Shown here: piece after piece, positions 4,232 to 52,400 of the stretch
Position numbering within the stretch: position 1 is the stretch's first letter
Layout of the letters: every line of letters begins with the position of its first letter
From: Acanthochlamys bracteata
Taxonomy: Eukaryota; Streptophyta; Magnoliopsida; Pandanales; Velloziaceae
Direction: 5' to 3'
Assembly (NCBI GenBank): GCA_019914995.1
Contig: CM034141.1
Span: 7,108,001 to 7,172,000 of the forward strand
Length of the DNA stretch: 64,000 nucleotides
Program-made: the position numbers and the translations under genes
The notes under the pieces: model-generated
Databases searched by the model: none
Seen by the model: the letters and a program-made list of their open reading frames with translations, nothing else
What the model was told of the DNA's origin: nothing

Positions 4232-5929
4232 TAATTAATAGTTGATCCTGCAATTGTTTAATTGTTCGATTTGCTAGCTAGCTGTGAACATATATATCTA
4301 TATCTATATATATATATACATATGTGGTGTGGTTTTAATTATCTGTGCTTTTATTTATGAACTGAAAATCCTAAGTAATTAAAGCATGAGTTGTAAATGA
4401 AGTCGTACGTAAAAGGCAAGCAAGCGAGGAAATCCATTTGGCGTGACTGAATTACGTCTTCAATGAGCACTAGCTAGTGTAGATTAACTATGCGCGCGAC
4501 ACTACTCGTGAAAACTAACTACCGTCTTCAATTAAAGATGAAGTTCCTGTTTCTGTGCTGATTGATTTTTCAATTCTGTAACTATATAAGCCTGGTGGAA
4601 ACCTGAAACTGTGCAAAAATTTTCTGGTTTTGTGAAAACTTGACATTAATTGATCCAGCAGAGTTAGGGGTCACCATCAACTTAAGCGTAGAGTTAGGGG
4701 TCCTTAATTGCTCGACTTCAGCTTCTCACTCTTCTGCTTTCACAGGATGTGCAACTTCCAGTTGACGGGAGTGGGACTCCTTAACATATATATATATATA
4801 TAGCGTACATTGTTTGGATTAATAACAGTATGTATACACAGCGCAATATGCAGTTATCGTCTACACTACTATAGCCAAAATTGCCATGATCAACTTGATC
4901 AAAAGAGTAATAATGTACGTGATATAACGTTGCAACAACCAACTATATATATGTGTTCATTCATGAAGAAACCTATATATATATGTGTTCGGCGACTGCA
5001 CGTTCGTTGGATTAATTGATTATTTATTGATCGATCCAACGGGGAAGAATATATATATAATAAGCACGGCACCACGGGGTGACCCATTCTTTTGTGAATC
5101 GAAATGTTACGTACGGTTGCATTCTACTACGTGCCGAGAAACTAATAGTGAGTTTACGTACGGAGTTTAACGAATGCTTTCCATAGATAAATATTGCGAA
5201 AGGTGCATATTTCTTAAGGAATAATGCTTAAATTTGACTATGTGGTCTTAAATTAGACGACTATATGTTCTTCTTCTCTTATTATCCCAAACATTTTACA
5301 TCCTAACTTTTTTTAAATAAAAGATAGAAATGTTATTTATTTTAATATTTTGTAATCACTTTGAAGCACCTTCTAAAAGTCCAAACATTGAATTTTCTTT
5401 TGCTACCTAATTTTCAAATAATTTTTATGCTTTTGTCTTTTGGTTATTGTAGTTCGATTAGGTTACAATTCTTACTTAATTCATTTTTTAATAAAAAATT
5501 ATCTATTTACGAAATTACATATAATAGAGTTAAGTTTTTTTAATTCAGAATTTAAAAAAAAACAAATATTTATTATTAGTCTGTGAAATGGGCTCTGTCG
5601 AAATGCTTCATACACATTGCAACATACATAAAATTTCCTCCGCCTATAAAAGATTCGCTTTCATAATCGACTACGCAGCCCACTAGTTGTAGTAAGAAAT
5701 CCATTATAATAAGCCCATGTTTAATTGGGCCACAAACATTATGGTCTGGTCATATTAAAACTTTGCGGCCTTTAACGTTCTATATCTCAGTCGCACTCGA
5801 TCCAATTCAACGGATACAGTAGCTCATGCAGGACGGACATATAATGCTGCGTCGTGTGATTTTAGTTCTCTCTCTACGATCGATTTTTTTTAGGGTTTTG
5901 TTAAGTTTCCAACTGCCGCCTCTGCGAAA
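4232..5929. other. Intergenic region between the Cys/Pro-rich gene and eS27
   Basis: No coding exon is supported. It holds the promoter of the minus-strand Cys/Pro-rich gene (alternating TA tracts at 4290-4322) and, from about 5580, the eS27 promoter. The latter has TGGGCY Site II-type words (TGGGCT near 5588; TTGGGCC near 5733) typical of plant ribosomal protein genes. A short direct repeat (AGAGTTAGGGGTC) occurs near 4661 and 4690. Confidence 0.5.
5891..5898 (+). promoter_or_regulatory. Telo-box in the eS27 leader
   Basis: TAGGGTTT, the reverse complement of the plant telo-box AAACCCTA, sits 32 bp before the eS27 start codon. Telo-boxes together with Site II (TGGGCY) words are a known signature of plant ribosomal protein and translation-factor promoters. 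Confidence 0.55.
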
Positions 5930-43002: not shown

Positions 43003-43556
43003 ATGAGTAGGTGAATGTAGAAGCTGATTACGTACATGGTTCTGGGATGGATTCTCAGCTGCTAATGTACGCAAACAACTTATGTAGCTTGGTTTTGAAC
43101 ATAGAGGTGGCTCATGCCAATAATTTTCTGCAAAGAGATGAGCACCAACGACATAGACATCAGGTACACTACCCTGCGGCATTCACCCTGTCCTTTTTAA
43201 CTCTTCGAGGAAATGTTCTCTTCCATCACTAAGTGCTATATTCATCATACTCTTGGTTGAATTTTCATTCTTATTTTGTTTCGGAACTTCTTATAAAAAG
43301 TTTGAAATAATTGCGGCAGTTACTTATTTTCAATGCATTGCTTCACGGTTTGGCGAACTGCGGTCCTCACCATGAAAGAAATTGTGAACTAGACATCGAT
43401 CTTTCATTTACCCTGGTTCTTCTAATGTGTGCATGTCTGTAATCATACTGATGCCTAGGTAATTATGTTCTAAGTACACAACTAATTTAACAATGTCTAG
43501 GTCATGATTCTAACGAATCCCAGGAGTTGTTACTTTGATAAAACAAGCTAACAGGA

Positions 43557-43594
<38 letters not shown>

Positions 43595-43769
43595 GAGAGT
43601 TCAAAATTTACTCATCTGAATAAACAAAGCGAATAGCAACACTAAGTTAGAATGCTGAAGGGAGTAAATTGCATTACCTAATGCAAATCATGTAGATACA
43701 CAAAAGCACTTGTGACTAATAGCAACAAGAACCATCTCAATTAATGCCAAAGATCTGCATGGAAAGAGA
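43003..43769. other. PPR 3' flank with long TA microsatellite
   Basis: No gene is seen. A perfect (TA)n run of about 15 units spans 43561-43590. Confidence 0.5.
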
Positions 43770-44310
43770 ACACGAATGACCTTCTCCACCAATGTCGTCC
43801 TGCTTCCTCAACCGGGCACAGACATTACACTCCACATCCGATGGATTTCCCAGAGGTGAGGGTTGCAATGGGGGCCAAAAAGTGCAGCCGCAGTTACAGA
43901 CAAATCTCACAAAGAAGTGAGCATGCGGAAAGTCATATCCGCATCATCCCCTTGTCCTTCATTATCATAATTTTCTTCTTATTTCATGGTATTAAAATTT
44001 TCGAGCTCATTTTCTCCACTGTCCTTCTAATTCTTGTCAACCTCACAGCAATCACAGTTTGCACTCGAATACATAGCCTTCCTGAAGCCTGATGCTGGCG
44101 GTCCTTGTACTTCCAGTTGACTGGAAAGTATCTAATGCAGACCTCACGGCCAGTAGGAATATCGTGGACGACAATGCATGGCAACATTGCTTCGAGGTTC
44201 ACTACTGGTCATTGTTTCGAGCTAGGCAAAGCGGCAGGGTTCTGGATCACCGCCGATGATCAGATAACGACCTGTGCCCGGGATGTCTGCAACTCTCACG
44301 ATCGCCGCTG
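43770..44310 (-). pseudogene. Remnant of a SET-domain (SMYD/ASHR-like) methyltransferase
   Basis: Minus-strand pieces match the end of a plant SET protein. NLEAMLPCIVVHDIPTGREV and CIRYFPVNWKYKDRQHQASG (44080-44202) resemble the ...REVCISYFPVNW-YKDRQ segment at the end of a SET domain. Next, in another frame, GYVFECKL leads to a cysteine-rich post-SET piece. HAHFFVRFVCNCGCTFWPPL and DVECNVCARLRKQDD (43785-43930) resemble the FVRYMC--CWGTLAPLPP...MECNICG region. The pieces lie in different frames with stops between, so the copy is dead. No upstream SET core was found. Confidence 0.6.
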
Positions 44311-44371
44311 CCGCCGCCGATATAGATAACAAAAGCAACGGTAGTCAAATACATGGGTTAGAACTACTAAC

Positions 44372-44482
44372 TGGGCTACCCTTTGGGCCTTAAGTTAGCC
44401 ATTTTATATCAGTAGACGTCCTGGGTTAGGCTGTTTGGAACTTTCCTTATTATTTATAACAAACAATACACATATAGGGTTT
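44372..44482 (+). promoter_or_regulatory. Site II pair and telo-box, probable snoRNA promoter
   Basis: TGGGCT at 44372-44377, TGGGCC at 44384-44389 and the telo-box TAGGGTTT at 44475-44482 lie 150-260 bp upstream of the first snoRNA copy. Site II plus telo-box is the known promoter signature of plant snoRNA gene clusters and ribosomal protein genes. Confidence 0.55.
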
Positions 44483-44633
44483 CTTGTTCTTATAAATCCT
44501 CTACTGGTGGCGCTCATCCCCTCTCGGGGAGGCGGCGGTGTCAGACAGCGACAGGCGGCCAGGGACGGAGGTACGATTAACTCTATTTCTGAATCATCTT
44601 CTGATTTGAGCCTTTTTTATTGTTAGTGGTTCG

Positions 44634-44724
44634 TGTCTCCGGTGATGTTACATGTAAAACTTTCGTTCTACCGAGAGGTTTCGCCACTGCGGATAGAATA
44701 TTTGGAGATCTGAACTGAGGAGCT
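44634..44724 (+). ncRNA. Box C/D snoRNA, U59-like, copy 1 (diverged)
   Basis: Flanking TCTCC and GGAG form a short terminal stem. The C box is GTGATGT (one mismatch to RUGAUGA; 44642-44648), the D box is CTGA at 44715-44718, and a D'-like CCGA follows the guide. The guide AACTTTCGTTCT (44658-44669) is complementary to the conserved 18S rRNA segment AGAACGAAAGTT. Shared words with copy 2 include AAAACTTTCGTTCT, TGCGGA and CTGAACTGAGGAG. The weaker stem and C box suggest this copy may be degenerate or less active. Confidence 0.55.
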
Positions 44725-44853
44725 ATTTTTGTTTTCCTTTTTTCTTGTTTGTGCCATGGAAACTTTCTTCAGATCCAATCTCGTTTTGTTTTTTGGTAAA
44801 TGGCTGTACTCGTAAGTATGCAAGTGCACTTAGAAAAAGAATCAAAGTGGCAG

Positions 44854-44955
44854 TTTTGTCTCCAATGATGATCAAAATATTAAAACTTTCGTTCTTCCTA
44901 GGTGTTAGAATCACAATGCGGAAGAAGAATGGAGACCTGAACTGAGGAGACAAAA
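44854..44955 (+). ncRNA. Box C/D snoRNA, U59-like, copy 2
   Basis: A 102-nt unit with a perfect 10-bp terminal stem, TTTTGTCTCC (44854-44863) with GGAGACAAAA (44946-44955). A perfect C box ATGATGA (44865-44871) follows the 5' arm and a perfect D box CTGA (44942-44945) abuts the 3' arm. The guide AACTTTCGTTCTT (44884-44896) pairs over 13 nt with 18S rRNA AAGAACGAAAGTT, followed by a D'-like CCTA. The fifth base before D' pairs with an adenosine, so 2'-O-methylation of that A is predicted. From memory, U59 guides this 18S adenosine (human A1031, Arabidopsis about A975). Confidence 0.78.
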
Positions 44956-45628
44956 CTTGTATTATACGTTTTAGAATTAGTTTTGTTTTAGGTTTTTCAT
45001 GTTTCGTCTGTAGTTTAGATGTTATTAAAATGTGAACTGAATGGTGGTGAGAGTTATCTTGTTGTGAGTATCGTGAAGGTGGTATTTTCATCCCTATGAA
45101 GATCAGATATGTTAAAGTAGTGGACTGATGAATGTCCTTGATGAAAACATTCTATGATGCTGAGGGAATTCTCAGAGATTCGACAACTTTGTCCTGATTT
45201 GAATTTTTCATAGATGTCTTGCATTGAAAAGTGAGTGTTCACTCATCTTAATATCAGTGTGCCTGTTTTTTAGAAGAAAAAGAAATCTGATTTCATGTAC
45301 ATATTGTAGTGCAGCAATGCCTTGCTTGTGAGTGATCATGAACTGACAGCATCTCCCTGTGATTGAAGTTTTTTATTTAGTTTCAGCCTTGTCTGAACAT
45401 AAAAACTTTGTTGACAACTTCATACTAGTTCTGAGGGAGATGTTCAGACTAGCATCATATACCTATGTTGTTTTTTTTATCTTAGAAGGAGCTGCACATT
45501 ATTCTTCTATGATCTAATGTCTCTGCTGCTGAGGGGAAATCCTCAGCTTAATACCATGTACATATTTCGGAGGAGCTGTGCATTAATCTTATATCCACTG
45601 ATATCCCTTTTTCACCTGGAAGGAAGAA
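44956..45628. other. Spacer between snoRNA copy 2 and the uL16 pseudogene
   Basis: No coding exon. It contains possible further C/D-like remnants (CTGATGA at 45125-45131 with CTGA near 45193) and three CTGAG-type hairpins (about 45159-45174, 45426-45454, 45528-45547). None has a convincing terminal stem plus C and D box together. Confidence 0.35.
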
Positions 45629-46045
45629 ATGGGTTGCAGACCTGCTCATTGCTAAAGGCAGATAAAAAATAAGCCTTACCCAAAGTCAAGGTACTGCAGT
45701 GGTATCCCAGACCCCAAGACTCGAACCTATGATGTTGGGATTAAAAAGAAGAGCGGGGATGAGTTCCCGTCGATGTCCACCATGTGAGATGGGAGAAGGA
45801 AAATGTGTTTAGTGAGGCTCTTGAAGTTGTTCTAACTGTCTGCAACGAGTGCATGATCAAGTATGCTGGGATAGATGCTTTCCACCTGCCTGTTAGGGAT
45901 CATCCGTTCTGTGTACTTAGGATCAACAAAATGTTGCCTTGTGCTAGTGCTGATGGAAATGAGAATACTGTTAACCCTATTCCATGTACTTAGGATAAAC
46001 GGGAAACCCTTAACAAGACTTTGTAATCCTGATGGAAATGAGAAT
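45629..46045 (+). pseudogene. Pseudogene of 60S ribosomal protein uL16 (RPL10)
   Basis: The sequence opens MGCRPAHC, hits a stop, and goes on [20 protein letters not shown] and [14 protein letters not shown], close to the RPL10 start [21 protein letters not shown] frameshift follows near 45775, then [20 protein letters not shown] and [20 protein letters not shown] up to [11 protein letters not shown]. The copy stops about half way through the family length. No introns interrupt it, so it is probably a truncated retrocopy. The last part (about 45912-46045) is duplicated in tandem with a 73-79 bp offset. Confidence 0.8.
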
Positions 46046-46472
46046 ATTGTTCGGTTTTGATCTTTGCTTTTGTTTTTAGTTTGAATTCATTGGTATCCTT
46101 ATAGAGCAAGTTCTCTGAGAAATATTTAATTTTGTTTGGTTAGTTCTGGTTTTGACAATTGTATTGGAAACGGTTTGTTATACATGGCAAAAGCTTTCCT
46201 TGCCATATGAGGAACCTGAACTTAGAATGTTCTGGTATTCGCAGCTGCTGTTTGAACTATTTATGTATGGTATAATTGTCTTTGTGTACGCACTAAAATA
46301 TTCGGTAGTTGAAATTGTACTAATACGCATATAGAAATACGGGTCGGATATCCGAAATATGGAGGCTATTTTAAAACCCGTAACCAATTTCTGTTCACGA
46401 GGAAAGTCTATTTATCTTCTTCTCTGCTGCTCGTCTTCGACAGACACGAGAAAATAGAGCGAGAGAGAAAGC
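46046..46472. other. Promoter region of the HP30-type gene
   Basis: No gene is seen. An inferred leader with GAGAGAGAAAGC lies directly before the start codon of the next gene. Confidence 0.4.
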
Positions 46473-49931: not shown

Positions 49932-52400
49932 ATGGGGGCCGAAGTAGAGGAGCAGCGCCGCCTTCTCACGACGGATGCGGAGTCCCAACCTTCATCGCCC
50001 CCCGGTGATTCCATGGGTTTGGCCTACCTGCTCTACTTCGTTCTCGGCACCGGTTACCTTCTTCCCTGGAACGCCTTCATCACCGCCGTTGACTACTTCT
50101 CTTACCTCTACCCAAGCACTCCCGTCGATCGTGTTTTCTCCGTTGCTTACATGGCCACTGGACTCGCCTTCCTGATACTCATTCTCCTGTGGGCCCACCG
50201 CTCCAGTGCTCATCTTCGTATCAACACCGGCCTTGCCCTCTTCGTCGTCTCTCTAATTATCGTCCCTGCAGCCGACGCATTCTGGGTCAAGGGCAGGACA
50301 CAGATCTATCCGACCTTCTACCTCTCTGTCGCTGCTACAGCCCTCTCCGGAGTCGCTGATGCCCTTGTCCAGAGTGGAGTCATTGGTGCTGCTGGAGAGC
50401 TGCCTGAACGGTACATGCAGGCTACAGTCGCGGGCACTGCAGCCTCCGGTAAAACATTAATCAACTCATCTTTCTTCTAATTGTTCTTTCATGCTCTAAT
50501 CTTGTTTGGATATTTCATTCCACTTTAAATCTAAGTAGCCCAGTGTCAGGCAATTGGTGAAAGAAATCAGGAATTGCTTTTGGAAAACTCAAAATTAATT
50601 TCTGAACTGTTTCACTAGCCCTCACCCACCATATACTGCATCAGTGAAATTACATCTTGCTGTGAAGCCAAATAGCGATTGATTTGCATTTTGGAGCTAT
50701 ATGAAGTAATTGTTGGGATGCATAACAAAATGTTAGCTAGTTATTGTCTTTTTTTCTTAATGAATTGTGGATAAAGTTATTGTAAAGAGTGTTTGCCTTA
50801 ATGTGGATGTTTATAAGCTAAAATTTTAGGGGAACTATGCTGCATTGTTAATACAGACATACAACCTTAGAATGAATAATTTTCCCACCTTGTGAGCCAT
50901 CTGTACTTGGACCAGAAACGATTAGTAATAGCTTTGTCAATTTTCTCACGTTATCTAAATGGTGAACACATTCTCCTTTATGATTTCTTCGTTTGACGAT
51001 TTCACATAGTTCTAGATGCTATTTGACACTTGGGAATGTAATGGTCAAAAGTTATTACTTAAATCTAGCTATATCACTTAAATGCAGAAAATGTAGGGGG
51101 AACTGGTGTTAACTGTTAAGGAGTCCTGAACTTTGTATTTGTAAGACAAGCTCCAATTAAGGCAATTCATGGTACAAAGGCTCCTTAAGGCAGTTCATCG
51201 CAAATTGTACGGGAAAGGCTATTCATAAACATGAACTAGACATAACTTCTTATAGTAGCCAAGGTTTCCTATGCAGCTAAAAGTAGATGACTCTAAGGTT
51301 TGCCTTAGTATACCAGTCAAGGATGCAGATTCTTTGTCAAGAGTTATGTTCAAAGTGAATTCGAACTCGATAAACATGTGAATCTAAAGGCATTGAGGAC
51401 CTTTGTCAAGAGTTACATTCAAGGATTTGCTATTTATTTTTACTCCGCCACTAGTTGCTCTTTCAGTTAAATCTAAGCTGCTTATGGTTAAATGCTTCAT
51501 AAAGACTTGACTCTCTTGCATTCCATAGTATTAAGTGAAGTGTATGGCAAATAGCTCCTAAAAATAAAAGAAGTAGATATTGTTGTCTCGGCGCATACAT
51601 TCATGCATCCATGTTTCAAGGAGTATATGTTCAAACACTTGTAAACCCTTGTATAATTGTTCTTGCCAGGGGTACTTGTTTCTCTGATGAGAGTGGTGAC
51701 TAAGGCTGTGTTCCCACAAGATGCTAGCGGCTTGAGGAAAAGTGCTAACCTTTACTTTGCCGTCAGCATTACATTTATGATTATATGCCTTGTTTTCTTC
51801 AATGTGGCAGACAGTCTTCCTGTTATTAGATACTACAAGAACATCAAGATTTTGGCTCAGAAGGAAGAGAGGAGCGAGTTTGGGCCTATGAGTGAATCAG
51901 CATGGAGGTCAAACTTGTGGATCGTCGTCGAAAGAGTGAAGTGGCTTTGTTTGGGCAACTTTCTCGTCTATGTTGTTACCCTTTCTATATTTCCAGGATT
52001 CATAACAGAGGATGTGCACTCAGAGATTCTCAAGGACTGGTATCCGATAATGCTTATTGCTGGTTACAATGTTTTTGACTTGGTGGGCAAATGCCTCACT
52101 GCACTATATCTCCCAGAGGATGGAAAGATGGCTGTTTCTGCGTGTGTTGCCAGACTTCTCTTTTATCCAGTATACTTGGGATGCTTGCATGGTCCCGGTA
52201 TCTTCCAAACAGAAGTTCCTATGATGGTAGTAACATGTGTCCTGGGCTTAACAAACGGTTACTGCACGTCCGTGCTGATGATCCTTGCCCCCAAACTGGT
52301 GCCGATACAACAATCTGAGATGGCAGCTATTGTGATGGTTCTGTTTCTAGTAATTGGACTAACAGCTGGTTCAATTGTTTCATGGTTCTGGGTCATTTGA
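49932..52400 (+). CDS. ENT1: Equilibrative nucleoside transporter (ENT1-like)
   Basis: Two exons (49932-50448 and 51670-52400) encode 415 residues. A hydrophilic acidic N-terminus, MGAEVEEQRRLLTTDAESQP, carries a dileucine-type signal (RRLL) seen in tonoplast or endomembrane proteins. About 11 membrane helices follow, the first being GLAYLLYFVLGTGYLLPWNA with the ENT motif LLPWNAFITA. A central hydrophilic loop (KILAQKEERSEFGPMSESAW) separates helices 6 and 7, as usual in the family. The C-terminus ends in a membrane helix (IGLTAGSIVSWFWVI), which is normal for ENTs. The protein moves nucleosides. The 1.2-kb intron is unremarkable. Confidence 0.93.

Follow-up and report, generated by a model that had tools for sequence, protein, structure and literature searches.

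Arabidopsis SnoR59, of the snoZ159/U59 family (RF00160), has been assigned to two rRNA positions, 18S A978 and 25S G1855 (PMC8053127), and is given with two gene copies, SNOR59a and SNOR59b, in PMC6461891. For the 18S site, the Neurospora row Nc CD49 in PMC2780460 names human U59A/B and yeast snR54 as counterparts. Plant snoRNA clusters and ribosomal-protein genes carry the TeloSII promoter signature, described in PMC4660826 as a telo-box and Site II elements within 1 kb, with a TATA box. A different guide, snR41, is also relevant here: yeast is known to carry its mark at 18S G1126, Neurospora has been assigned the mark and Entamoeba is predicted to have it, and it is missing from the listings for human and Arabidopsis. 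In yeast, G1126 is reported in PMC3938493 among the positions that DNAzymes leave uncut in the wild type, as with methylated sites. The Neurospora RNA, Nc CD9, is equated with snR41 and assigned to 18S Gm1122 by a 14/0 pairing at box D, with G-U counted as a match, and its table row shows a dash for both A. thaliana and H. sapiens (PMC2780460). The Entamoeba RNA, Me-Eh-SSU-G1152, contains TTTCAGCCTTGTCTGA and is given as the homologue of snR41 and 18S G1126 in a table that has dashes under human, Plasmodium and Trypanosoma and is laid out without a plant column (PMC3542256). Of the 35 18S sites that the Arabidopsis RiboMeth-seq table contains, none falls between U1013 and C1219 (PMC8053127).

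The locus described here lies in a 64-kb stretch of the Acanthochlamys bracteata assembly (the window, whose own numbering is used throughout), all of which was scanned with cmscan against 4227 Rfam families, with a repeat search and a close reading of 43600-46200. Two matches to RF00160 exceed its gathering cut-off of 39 bits, copy 1 at 44635-44724 (57.3 bits, E 1.2e-8) and copy 2 at 44858-44951 (67.1 bits, E 3.5e-11). Beyond these two, cmscan gave no gathering-level match to any of the 4227 families in the window, and ARAGORN found no tRNA in it. Elsewhere in the window, at 51657-52400, there is a nucleoside transporter for which Musa and Cocos are the best named matches, at 71% identity, among the best 120 of 913 matches. 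The sequence-only reading had proposed a tandem pair of U59-like box C/D snoRNAs and had named a covariance-model comparison as its own refuting test; since both copies pass at gathering level, the pair is borne out and can be taken as confirmed. It is genuine-looking but ordinary: its family, its paired arrangement and its type of promoter are all already known. The features of the region, some of them defined by comparison with a second locus on contig C18, are the following.

44372-44377 and 44384-44389, + strand: two Site II elements, TGGGCT and TGGGCC, exact matches to TGGGCY
44475-44482, - strand: telo-box AAACCCTA, exact match, with the same element in C18
44490-44497, + strand: TATA box TTATAAAT, identical and in the aligned place in C18
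44567-44575, + strand: possible 5' splice site GGAG/GTACG (GGAG/GTAAG in C18), conserved between the loci
44635-44724, + strand: U59 copy 1, by its family match, guide and conservation with C18
44852-44957, + strand: U59 copy 2 with its end stem, by family match, stem and guides
45089-45169, + strand: third conserved C/D-like RNA, resembling snoR21 (RF00352, below its cut-off), 87% between loci
45348-45444, + strand (C18: L005 4027-4119): fourth conserved C/D-like RNA, by a 14-nt 18S guide and conservation
45470-45516, + strand: possible 3' splice site, a T-rich tract and ATCTTAG/AAGG, with a conserved exon-like block, also in C18
45629-45960, + strand: decayed intronless copy of RPL10 (uL16), by tblastn with the genome's own RPL10
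Contig C18, 6914904-6915173 (L005 3405-3674): second U59 tandem pair, by RF00160

The general C/D layout, RUGAUGA and CUGA joined by an end stem, is perfect in copy 2 and present with one box C mismatch in copy 1. The complete order of parts claimed for copy 2 stands: a perfect box C, ATGATGA (44865-44871); a 13-nt 18S-directed guide (44884-44896); a D'-like CCTA (44897-44900), which has 2/4 letters of CTGA yet sits in the family-consensus register; and a perfect box D, CTGA (44942-44945), abutting the end stem, with a putative 25S-directed guide at 44931-44940 before it. The stem had been described as a perfect 10-bp helix; the pairing is indeed perfect (100% complementary), and the length is corrected by the repeat search to 12 bp, 44852-44863 with 44946-44957. 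Copy 1, whose guide lies 226 bp upstream of that of copy 2 as had been stated, is likewise the weaker of the two, with a box C of GTGATGT (44642-44648, one mismatch) and an end stem of only 4 bp (CUCC/GGAG). Its D' guide (44658-44669) is mismatched at the letter adjoining D', and is followed by the D'-like CCGA (44671-44674), the D guide (44704-44713) and box D, CTGA (44715-44718). The pair shares with snoZ159/U59 and Arabidopsis SnoR59 the C/D layout and an 18S guide in the same register, and with Arabidopsis the number of two gene copies; its putative 25S guide would correspond to the one that Arabidopsis SnoR59 has. It departs from the family in having CCTA and CCGA rather than CTGA as D' boxes and in the altered box C of copy 1. 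Copy 2 is also crossed in antisense by an open frame of 122 codons (44723-45091, - strand) of chance-like appearance.

Guides were paired to 18S and to large-subunit pieces and compared with 200 shuffled guides each. The 18S reference was L029 (contig C378 of the assembly), which appears to carry small deletions and whose 5.8S we take to be plant-like. The guide before D', AACTTTCGTTCTT, pairs 13/0 with this 18S in copy 2 (0/200 shuffles equal) and 12/0 in copy 1 (1/200); in viral contigs the 18S pattern has no exact match. The fifth-base rule locates the methylation target relative to the D or D' box, and by that rule the 18S target of U59 would be the final A in AAGAA, equivalent to A978 of Arabidopsis. 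The plant's own 25S piece, L033, is a 3' part without the second site, and hence this site was examined in two contigs foreign to the plant: L023, a eukaryotic rDNA contig filed under a bacterial horse-feces bin, and L028, which has the same 25S core and a 5.8S that is presumably fungal. Against UCAGGUCUCC in the large-subunit rRNA of L023, which is not this plant's, copy 2 pairs 10/0 through its D guide (2/200 shuffles), and the D guide of copy 1 gives 10 pairs, one of them G-U (11/200). Since the copy 1 guide also has an equally long chance match in 18S, its 25S assignment leans on its likeness to copy 2. Counted to the fifth base, the U59 25S guide would select the G in UCAG, equivalent to G1855 of Arabidopsis. 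Copy 2 also matches the contaminant L028 over 14 nt, but this match precedes neither D nor D' and was dropped. The fold energy of copy 2 is unusual (z -2.97; 3/200 shuffles as stable), that of copy 1 ordinary (z +0.64; 150/200 shuffles fold at least as well), and those of the third and fourth RNAs not outstanding (z -1.46 and -1.67); save for copy 2, fold energy was dropped as evidence.

The assembly itself has some peculiarities. Several contigs are seemingly foreign (C457, C249, C354 and others), the fungal-looking rDNA of L028 being on C457; many L16 genes are on small, bacterial-looking contigs; and within an 8 Mb contig, L020 (C12:4163300-4173200) has plastid-type matches (psbJ, ycf2, tRNAs) that would represent either a nuclear plastid insertion or a misjoin.

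A genome search over the 195.5-Mb assembly (557 contigs), in which RF00160 was scored on 61 of 44653 first-look candidates, gave 4 matches among those scored: the window pair and the second tandem pair on C18, whose copies 1 and 2, at 54.5 and 59.7 bits, are both above the family cut-off. Both the cluster and the flank at 43461-44245 can be aligned with the C18 block (L005), and thus the two loci probably arose by block duplication. With gaps counted, copy 1 is 88% and copy 2 86% identical across the loci, as against 63% and 61% between the copies of one locus; hence the tandem duplication came before that of the block. The copies show mirror-image wear, with copy 2 intact and copy 1 worn in the window, and, on C18, copy 1 keeping its stem and box D and copy 2 altered (box C ATTATGA, box D CTGT).

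The promoter elements are found between 138 and 263 bp ahead of copy 1. C18 has them as well, its two Site II elements being upstream of the cluster at a comparable place. Single elements prove little, because the 64-kb window contains 61 instances of TGGGCY where about 42 are expected, and 6 of AAACCCTA where 2.3 are expected. The combination is another matter: at both loci, Site II and telo-box within 1 kb, with a TATA box and upstream of the cluster, are the signature published in PMC4660826. The claim of a Site II/telo-box promoter just upstream thus stands, and gains from the C18 locus. The resemblance to the plant TeloSII polycistronic clusters of PMC4660826 extends to the presence of several snoRNAs in the same direction; what differs here is that candidate splice sites flank the cluster and that a relic of RPL10 lies downstream.

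The sequence, the family match, the rRNA complementarity and the conservation in a duplicated locus are direct observations. Our main reading, to which we would give a probability of about 0.9, is that this is a polymerase II snoRNA gene cluster with a TeloSII promoter and that two of its C/D RNAs are U59/snoR59. Polymerase II would transcribe the cluster from this promoter, and the transcript would be cut into box C/D RNAs. After assembly into snoRNPs, the U59 stretch before D' would pair with 18S and set fibrillarin on A978, and the stretch before D would pair with 25S and mark G1855; two further C/D-like RNAs would come from the same cluster. Transcription, processing, snoRNP assembly and methylation are all predicted here from sequence.

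An alternative reading concerns the host transcript: a 5' intron may house the RNAs, in a transcript that formerly continued into an RPL10 retrocopy, the frame having since died in both loci and the snoRNAs having been kept. GGAG/GTAMG before the cluster and a T-tract with ATCTTAG behind it are conserved in both loci, though as splice sites they are candidates read by eye. The exon-like block behind the cluster is reported by DNA search from the two loci only. In both loci, a block like GGAGCTGCACATTATTCTT occurs twice with a spacing of 84 bp (window 45488-45600, where GGAGCTG stands at 45488 and again at 45572); such blocks stand behind TTAG in 3/4 cases, are found by DNA search nowhere but in these loci and are possibly old exons. 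The RPL10 relic follows directly downstream in both loci, and, in PMC4660826, plant hosts of intronic snoRNAs are mostly ribosomal-protein or ribosome-biogenesis genes. In the window, the relic matches the first half of the gene only, tblastn shows a stop codon in frame and a change of frame, and the first RPL10 intron position is closed; in C18 (L005 about 4330-4960), the second and third positions are closed and the frame is broken too. Coding exons of an intact host gene were therefore rejected, and the broken frame and closed intron positions identify a processed relic. The frame-breaking gaps in the alignment are not common to the two relics, which would suit this reading. Against it, the relic may simply have been inserted downstream of the cluster as a processed pseudogene. 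The two intact-RPL10 loci, L018 and L019, contained no snoRNA by cmscan at E up to 1. On balance, an intronic origin of this kind is possible, with the odds leaning somewhat against it.

The relic has a second use. Its stretch at 45629-45960 is 62% identical between the loci, and the differences fall at 25/99 first, 31/98 second and 32/101 third codon positions, a rough evenness that would follow if coding constraint had been absent from the time of the duplication, and that makes the relic usable as a neutral yardstick. In the global alignment of the loci, with gaps counted, the best conserved stretch is the copy 1 island, at 89%, and the spacer behind it falls to 40%; the copy 2 island stands at 84% and its spacer at 44%, the 45086-45170 island at 87% and its spacer at 52%, and the 45346-45450 island at 84%, followed by 64% for 45451-45620. 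Three stretches preceding copy 1 have 42-45%. Measured against the yardstick, the four islands, at 84-89%, appear to have been kept by selection.

These figures bear on whether copy 2 is the sole working snoRNA, with copy 1 and the C18 copy 2 as decaying duplicates. The box C, the 4-bp stem and the ordinary fold of copy 1 would suit this, as would the altered boxes C and D of the C18 copy 2. However, copy 1 is the best conserved of the islands and retains its box D and 12-nt guide, the odd letter in its box C is common to both loci, and both C18 copies still score above the RF00160 cut-off; we thus regard a single working copy as unlikely. That the whole is a chance resemblance or a repeat, for which one could cite the unremarkable fold energies of copy 1 and the third and fourth RNAs, is highly improbable and already contradicted by the Rfam E-values, the genome search and locus alignment that give a second conserved locus on C18, and the fit of the D' guides to the assembly's own 18S.

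The snoRNA cluster probably extends beyond the U59 pair, and the putative 25S-directed guides, the third and fourth RNAs and the C18 locus are all absent from the sequence-only reading. The third RNA has a box C of ATGAAGA (45096-45102, one mismatch), a D' guide (45114-45123) before CTGA (45125-45128; TTGA in C18), a D guide (45149-45159) before a box D of CTGA (45160-45163) and a 4-bp end stem. Its overall layout and the stretch preceding D' are like those of snoR21, but it scores 29.2 bits in the window and 36.7 in C18 against an RF00352 gathering cut-off of 45, and membership of that family was rejected. Its D guide also differs from that of snoR21, and the window RNA has one extra G before D', by which the target would shift one base. 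The genome search with RF00352 gave no match at E up to 0.1, even for this island, and its controls likewise gave none; a DNA search reported the two clusters only. The D' guide pairs 10/0 with 25S CCACTACTTT of L033 (11 nt in C18; 7/200 shuffles) and the D guide with 18S CATCATAGGAT over 11 nt with one G-U (4/200 shuffles), where the C18 copy is changed; both targets are tentative. Its middle part also matches 18S over 16 nt; this match was set aside, since no D-type box adjoins it and since it is broken in C18.

The fourth RNA, which lies beyond the part of the cluster covered by the sequence-only reading, is its least ordinary member. No Rfam family matches it above cut-off in the window scan. 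Its end stem pairs 45348-45357 with 45435-45444 (10 bp including one G-U), its box C-like GTGATTGA (45359-45366) has one extra U and is irregular in both loci, and its box D, CTGA (45431-45434), is perfect. The guide, AGTTTCAGCCTTGT (45379-45392), directly precedes a perfect D', CTGA (45393-45396), and pairs with GCAAGGCTGAAACT of the L029 18S over 14 nt, with one G-U beside the box; 0/200 shuffles do as well. With ACAAGGCTGAAACT of two other eukaryotes, it pairs without any G-U. Guide and D' are unchanged in C18, and as an 18-mer with up to two mismatches they occur at 16 places in the genome, of which only 2, the two clusters, are exact (6 places for a backwards control). The other guide position is without a target (101/200 shuffles as good), and a 13-nt match to 25S was dropped, as it runs through box D. 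The fifth base from D' pairs with the 18S G of yeast snR41, so that the predicted target is the first of two adjacent Gs in 18S GCAAGGCUGAAACU (yeast G1126). Compared by guide alone, it shares with snR41, Nc CD9 and Me-Eh-SSU-G1152 an antisense box that precedes a D-type box, the letters being those of the Entamoeba RNA and the Neurospora likeness being that of the 14/0 pairing given for Nc CD9; here, however, the box is at D' and not at D.

From this complementarity, the fourth RNA probably guides methylation of the 18S G marked by snR41 in yeast. A narrow literature search gave nothing for a plant G1130 mark, and the main texts of four plant papers (PMC8351944, PMC11542601, PMC7464842, PMC8575768) have no mention of a G1126-type mark; the same holds for the main text of a study of the tobacco ribosome (PMC10281867), where 113 putative 2'-O-methyl sites are reported, with the site tables in the supplement. 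A plant counterpart of the fourth RNA may exist in further literature. We give even odds to the fuller proposition that this RNA is a working plant guide for the equivalent of yeast G1126, that the lineage either kept an ancient guide lost elsewhere or remade it at D', and that its ribosomes would carry a mark missing from the Arabidopsis map.

With the U59 pair, a known family gains a well-behaved member. Comparison of the two loci, for which the dead gene serves as a built-in neutral clock, indicates which stretches of the cluster are kept. The fourth RNA predicts a ribosomal mark at one nucleotide that can be searched for directly, and, if the prediction is true, the absence of this mark from the Arabidopsis map would not hold for all plants.
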